From: Lachnospiraceae bacterium
Lineage (GTDB): Bacteria; Bacillota; Clostridia; Lachnospirales; Lachnospiraceae
Assembly: GCA_017626325.1 (NCBI GenBank)
Contig: JAGAIZ010000082.1
Span: 1 to 43,093 of the forward strand
DNA length: 43,093 nucleotides
Direction of reading: 5' to 3'
The notes under the pieces were generated by a model. That model was not told the DNA's origin, made no database searches, and saw only the letters and a program-made list of their open reading frames with translations. Positions 3,196 through 4,537 of the stretch are shown piece after piece. How positions within the stretch are numbered: position 1 is the first letter of the stretch; every line of letters begins with the position of its first letter. Position numbers and translations under genes: made by a program.

Positions 3196-3762
3196 CTATT
3201 TACGGTTATATTCATTCATCGCCTTATCCGCGCCTTCCGTTATCATCACCTCTATGGCTCTGGCCGCGCGTCCGGCACTATCGTCCATCGTTTTCCGTTC
3301 TGTGCTGTTGAAATGCCCCAGCTCATAGTCCGCCAGATCGGCGCCCCGGGGCTTCTCTCCCACACCCATCTTCACCCGCTGGAACTCATCATGTCCCAAA
3401 TGCAGAATGATATTTTTCAGCCCGTTGTGTCCGCCCGCGCTTCCCTTCTTACGGATACGAATCTGCCCCACGTCCAGGCTGACATCATCTGATATCACGA
3501 TCAGCTCCGATCTCTCATCTATCTTATAGAAGTTTATGACATCCCGCACGCTTTCACCACTCAGATTCATATAGGTCTGAGGCTTCACCAGCACTGCCTT
3601 CTGTCCTGCCACAAAGCCTTTACCGATTAACGCCTTATGCTTCTTCTCTCCCACTGCGATATGATTTCTGTCCGCCAGCACGTCGATGACGTCGAAGCCA
3701 ATATTATGCCGCGTATTCTGATACTCCCGTCCCGGATTTCCGAGTCCTACTATAATGTACAT
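3196..3762 (-). CDS. pth: Peptidyl-tRNA hydrolase
   Basis: Hydrolyses the ester bond of peptidyl-tRNAs released prematurely from ribosomes, recycling tRNA in the cytoplasm. The protein has 188 residues, the usual family length. Visible signatures are the N-terminal VGLGNPG with Asn9, TRHNIGF with the catalytic His19, PQTYMNLSG, and GSAGGHNGL. I chose ATG 3762 (MYIIVGLG) because GGAG lies six bases upstream; an in-frame ATG at 3774 would add four residues that the family lacks. The gene precedes mfd, a common Firmicute order. Its leader of about 195 bases carries three perfect hairpins and a possible pseudoknot reaching the ribosome binding site. Confidence 0.96.
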   Translation of the reverse strand: MYIIVGLGNPGREYQNTRHNIGFDVIDVLADRNHIAVGEKKHKALIGKGFVAGQKAVLVKPQTYMNLSGESVRDVINFYKIDERSELIVISDDVSLDVGQIRIRKKGSAGGHNGLKNIILHLGHDEFQRVKMGVGEKPRGADLADYELGHFNSTERKTMDDSAGRAARAIEVMITEGADKAMNEYNRK

Positions 3763-3775
3763 ACTAATCTCCATT

Positions 3776-3908
3776 CCGGAGCGTTTTACGCGACGGGGCG
3801 ATGAGAAATCCGCATAGGCGGTTTCTCATCTGCCATCAGACAAATTTGTGACGCTCCGGCACAAATTTGAGATTGAAAAATCAGCATATCAGTGTGATTT
3901 TTCAATCT
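3776..3908 (-). promoter_or_regulatory. Structured pth leader: three abutting hairpins with a possible pseudoknot
   Basis: Plus-strand coordinates. Hairpin C pairs 3870-3883 with 3895-3908 (14 bp, perfect). Hairpin B pairs 3841-3850 with 3860-3869 (10 bp, perfect) around the nine-base loop 3851-3859. Hairpin A spans 3797-3834: GATGAGAAA pairs with TTTCTCATC, plus inner CCGC/GCGG and outer GGC/GCC with single bulges. B and C touch with no spacer. The loop of B (ACGCTCCGG on plus) is exactly complementary to 3776-3784, which sits four bases upstream of the pth ribosome binding site. The element lies downstream of a candidate promoter at 3963-3991, so it should be transcribed as pth leader RNA. 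The hairpins are seen directly; their function is inferred. A dispersed intergenic repeat is the main alternative. Confidence 0.7.
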
Positions 3909-3962
3909 AACCTCATTTCTGTTCCTATTCTATGATAATTATGCTTCTGGTGATGCTTTCTC

Positions 3963-3991
3963 ATTTTATCAATAACATTCATCACGAACAA
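3963..3991 (-). promoter_or_regulatory. Candidate sigma-A promoter for pth-mfd
   Basis: Read on the minus strand: TTGTTC (3991-3986), a 17-base spacer, then TAAAAT (3968-3963). Transcription would start near 3956 and pass through all three leader hairpins before reaching pth. Confidence 0.5.
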
Positions 3992-4042
3992 GTATTATTT
4001 CCACTTTTGACAGATTATTTGAATAACCTTTATGCCCATAAG

Positions 4043-4066
4043 AAAAGGACGCTTCCGCGTCCTTTT
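4043..4066 (-). terminator. Rho-independent terminator of spoVG
   Basis: A perfect ten-base-pair stem (AAAAGGACGC with GCGTCCTTTT) around a four-base loop, 21 bases after the spoVG stop codon. On the minus strand the stem ends in a T-rich run, as expected for spoVG transcripts. Confidence 0.9.
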
Positions 4067-4087
4067 CCTTCCACACTATGCATTTTA

Positions 4088-4360
4088 CTACTCACTATCC
4101 GGTTCTAACAACGCCTCTTCATAGCTTTCCAGAATAATCTTCTGAATCCGATCTCTTGTCTCTGAGTTGATCGGATGTGCAATATCACGATACTCGCCGT
4201 CGCTTGCCTTCTTGCTTGGCATAGCAATGAAAAGACCCTTTTCACCTTCAATTACTTTAATGTCATGAACTACGAATTCATCGTCAATGGTAATTGAGAC
4301 GATTGCTTTCATCTTGCTGTCTTGAGTCATCTTACGCACGCGGACATCAGTAATTCTCAT
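4088..4360 (-). CDS. spoVG: SpoVG, RNA/DNA-binding regulator
   Basis: Small nucleic-acid-binding regulator, known in Bacillus for effects on septation and cortex formation and in Staphylococcus and Listeria as a global regulator. The 90 residues begin [10 protein letters not shown] and contain [30 protein letters not shown] and DIAHPINSE, all hallmarks of the family; the length is normal. The start at 4360 has GGAGG nine bases upstream. An open frame continues upstream to 4444, but those residues have no family counterpart and are probably leader sequence. A terminator follows directly. The gap of about 180 bases back to glgD shows no convincing sigma-A promoter; a sigma-H type is possible but not clear by eye. 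Confidence 0.95.
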
Positions 4361-4537
4361 GAAGCTCAGCCTCCTTATCATAATGATACCGAACAGATTC
4401 CCGTCGGTTTTCACAAGCTTCTCCACATAAGTCATACTCATCAAGCCACGTAGCTTGTAATAAACATTTAGTTAAAAACCTTCATGCCCTTCACACTATA
4501 TTCTACTCTAATTAGCAGTTGCCCTTCTATCATATCA

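Follow-up and report, generated by a model that had tools for sequence, protein, structure and literature searches.

Three hairpins upstream of pth belong to a probably mobile, RNA-structured repeat with copies ahead of the start codons of many genes

Next to pth, the gene for peptidyl-tRNA hydrolase, three perfect hairpins lie end to end in the window, by which we mean the whole 43,093-nucleotide stretch of Lachnospiraceae DNA that was analysed (contig JAGAIZ010000082.1). Do they form a regulatory RNA for pth, as the initial annotation proposed, or are they something that merely happens to sit there? The parts themselves are as first described. An inverted-repeat search recovered arms of 9 bp (3800–3808/3822–3830, with an inner CCGC/GCGG seen both in the sequence and in the computed fold), 10 perfect bp (3841–3850/3860–3869, part of a 13-nt pair at 92%) and 14 bp (3870–3883/3895–3908, at 100%), and the loop at 3851–3859 is fully complementary to 3776–3784. 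The segment folds far beyond chance on both strands (z of −8.1 and −8.7, with 0 of 200 shuffles reaching this in each case). Two points needed correction. The hairpins and the complementarity stand, but pth is on the minus strand and the RNA is thus the reverse complement of the letters as read; and the unit defined by the structure model runs from 3760 to 3910, with an SD and the pth ATG at its end. On the minus strand the order is GAGG, hairpins A, B (with its nine-base loop), C and D, then ACGCTCCGG, which is the strand that pairs with loop B in this copy, and AATGGAGATTAGTATG, which holds the SD, the spacer and the pth start codon (Table 1). The promoter-like sequence noted upstream is not above chance by consensus, one being found where 1.4 are expected in shuffles. 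A perfect 11-bp inverted repeat at 4042–4067, just downstream of a minus-strand ORF (4088–4444) that reads by eye as spoVG, is perhaps the putative terminator of that ORF.

Table 1. Parts of the element copy at pth (window coordinates)
Feature	Position	Strand	Basis
Whole element copy, including its own SD and the pth start codon	3760..3910	-	covariance model, 159.1 bits
GAGG, left flank, probably the original pth SD	3911..3914	-	inference from relatives' pth leaders
Hairpin A, 14-bp stem	3870..3908	-	inverted-repeat arms; covarying stem
Hairpin B, whose loop (3851-3859) forms the 5' strand of the pseudoknot	3841..3869	-	arms; covariation
Hairpin C (3800-3830) with GGC/GCC extension	3797..3834	-	arms, fold, covariation
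Small hairpin D; bases common to the long pseudoknot form	3781..3791	-	covariation; 88.4% of cells paired (relatives' copies)
3' strand of the pseudoknot, partner of 3851-3859	3776..3784	-	complementarity; covariation
GGAG, the element's own SD (function inferred)	3769..3772	-	sequence; conserved among copies
pth start codon, directly after the element	3760..3762	-	sequence, ORF

The first point to note is that the segment is not confined to pth. BLAST with the 133-base segment gave 36 matches in its own draft genome (3.11 Mb). Six of these, the window copy counted, are full length with 93–100% identity, and searches with two further element types gave 46 and 38 matches, partly overlapping. 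A covariance model built from 23 own-genome copies, which had been collected by BLAST, matched 45 places in that genome. The same model, applied to relatives as the initial annotation had proposed, matched 31 of 61 genomes: the own genome, 29 of the 36 other species of the genus and 1 of the 24 others, with matches per same-genus genome ranging from 0 to at least 50. The pth leader could be read in 29 of the 36 congeners (five more matched pth without a locus and two were unmatched), and the element was at pth in none of the 29. A riboregulator of peptidyl-tRNA hydrolase has the position and the pairing at pth in its favour, but near-identical copies precede other, unrelated genes, a pattern that the initial annotation itself had named as grounds for refutation, and with 36 own-genome matches and 0 of 29 relatives' pth leaders carrying the element we rejected it; it is now scarcely credible. 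The alternative first offered beside it, a dispersed hairpin repeat, proved right, with the addition that copies lie in gene leaders and in one orientation. We read the trio at pth as a single copy of a mobile, RNA-structured repeat of some gut bacteria, which has come to stand ahead of the start codons of many genes of different kinds and brings a new ribosome-binding site with it.

Across the order the element is rare, being found under strict filters in 9 of 246 genomes, 5 of 116 genera and two families. An exact 3'-end pattern retrieved at least 113 stretches, of which 80 loci (L082–L161), chosen by their 3' end, were used; among the matches listed were Lachnospiraceae, Acetatifactor, Roseburia, Eisenbergiella, Lachnospira and other Clostridia, together with a single 'Bacteroides' and a single 'Bacillus' label. 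The 'Bacillus sp.' contig (L154, 268865 bases) has the same element and the same size as contig G035:C50 of the present genus (L242), and its public label looks wrong. Searches of plasmid records (72,556) and phage records (50,697) gave no match to the window copy, and the 3'-end pattern was absent from the viral contigs searched, so that phage or plasmid cargo was rejected.

Copies end in their own SD followed by a start codon. Under a strict test, requiring an ATG that opens at least 50 codons and lies 6–13 nt past the end of the pseudoknot strand, this holds for 12 of 23 own copies and for 47 of 56 relatives' copies, the latter somewhat favoured by a covariance model that contains the start codon; random positions pass at 4–5% (115/2300 for the own genome, 222/5600 for the relatives). 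A looser test lets through 17 of 25 own copies and 50 of 56 from relatives, yet its control also passes at 23–24%, and the strict test was therefore preferred. Loci L082–L161, selected by 3' end, were left out of these counts. Among the 11 own copies without a strict start codon, a further element or hairpin fragment comes next in five (L010, the first of two, L017, L040, L038 and L029), the start codon lies slightly beyond the strict distance in L014, and L012, L022, L025, L027 and L030 are misses without explanation. The downstream genes have no evident common theme; reading their N-termini suggests pth, RNase III, cytidine deaminase, NAD(P)HX epimerase, an Rrf2-type regulator, ArgC, RuvA, TruA and FabZ. 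At L046, L049, L050, L051, L052 and L053, solo 3' modules (..GCTCTGACATGGAGGATTAG..) precede genes with little or no remainder of the element, as if the SD end alone had been kept.

The four hairpins and the pseudoknot covary across copies. In the 23 own copies, 97.1% of the cells at the 46 pairs of six helices are standard. Double-change cells number 136, where shuffles give 45.9, and pairing falls to 34–44% when slid. In 56 copies from 18 other genomes, aligned by fitting to the covariance model, the nested helices are 98.0% standard with 385 double changes against 120.6 shuffled. The pseudoknot, which lies outside that model, pairs at 92.9% in the same copies against 81.4% in shuffles, with 39 double changes against 13.2 and 6–55% pairing when slid. 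All these measures are inflated by kinship among the copies; the number of further pair types is not above shuffles for the own copies, the relatives' nested helices or the relatives' pseudoknot, nor is the number of doubly changed pairs for the pseudoknot in the 56 relatives' copies. We accept the pseudoknot because distinct compensated loop/partner types exist, namely CCGGAGCGT/ACGCTCCGG, GTCAGAGC/GCTCTGAC, TTCTGAGCGA/TCGCTCAGAA and CCGAAGCGT/ACGCTTCGG. Joint changes of loop and partner are also seen as CCGGAGCG/CGCTCCGG and CCGAAGCG/CGCTTCGG. Compensatory changes, both within the own genome and among relatives, thus bear out the pairing of the loop with the SD-adjacent strand that was first seen at pth. 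The longest loop–tail helix averages 8.3 pairs within copies against 5.6–6.4 between mismatched copies (A1, A2), hairpin B being recognised for this comparison in 20/23, 50/56 and 50/77 rows. Some chimeric copies (L014, L063, L234) combine the loop of one type with the tail of another and show only partial pairing. Extra hairpin modules such as AACTGAGTAAACTCAGTT, resembling expansion segments, occur at set points of hairpin A (L020 2458–2641, L029 4146–4307, L038 1995–2178, L032 8748–8910) and of hairpin C (L017, L040, L227).

The left flank of the copies holds a further SD, in a fixed register. For this count 124 of the 156 rows of A1–A3 were kept, loci L082–L161 included, after dropping duplicates, short flanks and rows in which the start of hairpin A was unrecognised. 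An SD core falls within the last 16 nt in 78 of 105 non-tandem copies (95 of 124 with tandem copies included), against 567 of 4960 random 16-mers (11%). This flank is AATGGAG-like and resembles the element's own right end, a likeness that would also explain the tandem copies. Several relatives' pth leaders have GAATCGAGGTAACTATG in place of the window's CAGAAATGAGGTTAG before the element, which suggests that the element inserted just after the original pth SD.

Comparison of the draft genomes of two close species locates the insertions. Of eight insertions in G006 that were looked up in G035, both flanks found a match for five, and all five sites were empty. The junction could be read in three of these pairs. 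In the cleanest (L229/L266), ATGGAGG, the element and TTAAAATG face an empty ATGGAGGAAATCGTAAAATG; in L237/L265 the element directly follows GGGAGG; and in L235/L267 the junction is approximate. For L230/L268 and L233/L269, divergence of the leaders prevents the junction from being fixed. Two further sites (L228, L232) matched their flanks on separate G035 contigs whose ends (L270, L273) fall inside the element, implying that these sites are filled in both species, and the eighth (L234) was without a match in G035. Read against the empty sites, the insertion point is at or next to the SD of the target gene and before its start codon. One site, with flanks 93% identical and a shared remnant of an older copy upstream, is occupied by different element types in G035 and G006, which suggests that insertion recurred at that SD. 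A second site has the same type in both. Five of 11 fetched G031 loci were queried against G009, and none matched across both flanks. Left and right flanks are both SD-like, but the three readable pairs gave no exact target-site duplication, and the empty/filled comparisons gave no fixed right junction. Since G035 contigs break within copies, copy numbers in draft genomes are probably underestimated.

What, then, might the structure do? The initial annotation considered a pseudoknot that would occlude the ribosome-binding site. We found no support for this: the SD sits immediately past the pseudoknot strand, where none of the covarying helices reaches. Nested folding, whose models leave pseudoknots aside, was applied to 77 of 79 rows; relative to shuffled upstream sequence, the SD was more accessible in 16 of the 23 own copies and in 23 of the 54 from relatives (means of 0.43 versus 0.31 and of 0.33 versus 0.34, respectively). 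Nested folding gave no consistent sign of either occlusion or exposure of the SD. These results bear on the idea of a dispersed regulon leader, in which the pseudoknot would switch translation in response to a protein or ligand and mobility would spread the regulon. A pseudoknot with compensatory changes beside the SD is what such a leader would have, and hairpin D and the long pseudoknot form share bases and so partly exclude each other, which is switch-like. Against it, the SD outside the helices is not consistently altered in accessibility, the genes are without a theme, and copy number runs from nil to 50 or more within one genus. We consider a regulon leader unlikely.

The reading we favour, at a probability of roughly 0.72, is that of a mobile but non-autonomous 5' leader: landing between the SD and the start codon of a gene, it would provide a replacement SD, placed behind a pseudoknot. 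An element of ∼140–180 nt would insert in the orientation of the gene, leaving the old SD upstream, and the element's own SD (AATGGAG..TTA), beside the start codon, would take over. In the mRNA, hairpins A–D would fold and loop B would pair with the strand that immediately precedes the new SD, the structure presumably acting in RNA. Its main use may be that the target gene stays translated after insertion, and the element is tolerated as a result. A putative enzyme would move the element, with the SD-like AATGGAGATTA serving as the target and also forming the right end of the element. Dispersal, orientation, position, presence or absence between species and the covarying structure, pseudoknot included, are established by comparing genomes and copies; that the structure preserves translation is what we infer from them.

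Searches for a Y1 transposase, a reverse transcriptase and an IS110 transposase found no mobiliser common to all the copy-rich genomes, which are drafts. PF01797 (Y1), present in 12 of 37 genomes of the genus, is absent from the own genome and from the copy-rich drafts G002, G006, G009, G014, G029 and G031; reverse transcriptases are absent from the copy-rich drafts G002, G006, G008 and G009, and IS110 transposases above the cut-off from the own genome and the copy-rich drafts G002, G006, G014 and G029. Reading by eye beside eight copies, mostly hairpin-A-only or decayed, revealed no evident mobiliser ORF. The fold could instead serve only single-stranded DNA transposition, of REP or IS200/IS605 derivation, with no role in RNA and with the leader position reflecting tolerance. 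Copies start with NTAG or NAAG followed by a bulged hairpin, a foot that may resemble the GTAG-type REP tag, and the left flank is like a retained target; the fixed orientation, the replacement SD and the missing Y1 in the own genome and the six copy-rich drafts named for it tell against this, and we regard it as improbable.

Searched in E-value mode, window positions 3600–4100 and 20 loci gave no Rfam match at gathering level, with one weak sub-threshold match each; with only these two weak sub-gathering matches, a known Rfam family was rejected. Our literature search, which stopped short of supplements and most subscription papers, found no description of such an element. SAM-II and preQ1-II are riboswitches with an SD-proximal pseudoknot, formed between a hairpin loop and a strand in the vicinity of the SD. 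The element is alike in this pairing and, as in cis-regulatory RNAs, has covarying secondary structure in 5' leaders; unlike them, it has its SD outside the helices, occurs in dispersed copies and has no Rfam match at gathering level, and the N-termini read belong to unrelated genes rather than to the consistent downstream function of a riboswitch. BOX and RUP are modular structured repeats near genes in streptococci, and the element is similar in that respect. Neither is known to insert between an SD and a start codon or to carry an SD with a pseudoknot.

REP/REPIN sequences, with their RAYT transposases (PMC3116915, PMC2817692), are likewise short, high-copy, non-autonomous, palindromic and extragenic, with a hairpin bearing a short foot tag; the terms sought do not occur in a further REP/RAYT paper (PMC3733652). 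The element differs in having four hairpins and a pseudoknot, one orientation to the gene, its own SD and no Y1 transposase in the listed copy-rich drafts. MITEs, exemplified by MITEAba12 (PMC6382973), are also small, non-autonomous, dispersed and variable between strains or species, but the element has no terminal inverted repeats (internal arms only), its right end is a single-stranded SD sequence, and at the three readable empty/filled sites the flanks are both SD-like without a clean target duplication. A survey of mobile or repeat sequence candidates, covarying motifs in many copies per genome, lists 250 of them (PMC11109978); its example MRSC-65-2 is a single long stem and thus unlike the element, although covariation and high copy number are common to both. 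The element family might be among those 250. We file the element as a dispersed non-autonomous repeat. Its SD-targeted insertion and SD replacement may set it apart as a kind of its own. Whether an SD-targeting, RNA-structured cassette that inserts site-specifically between SD and start codon, restores the SD and gives dozens of genes a pseudoknotted leader amounts to a new kind of mobile element is a claim we make tentatively, at slightly less than even odds.

Most mobile elements are burdensome when they land in a gene leader. This element appears to use the leader as its niche and to offset the cost of landing there by providing a replacement ribosome-binding site. Were that the case, dozens of unrelated genes within one genome could quickly gain a common structured leader, and mobile DNA could thereby build or rewire translational control by a direct route. 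The copies also form a natural pseudoknot family with several compensatory haplotypes, in which to ask what structure just 5' of an SD does.
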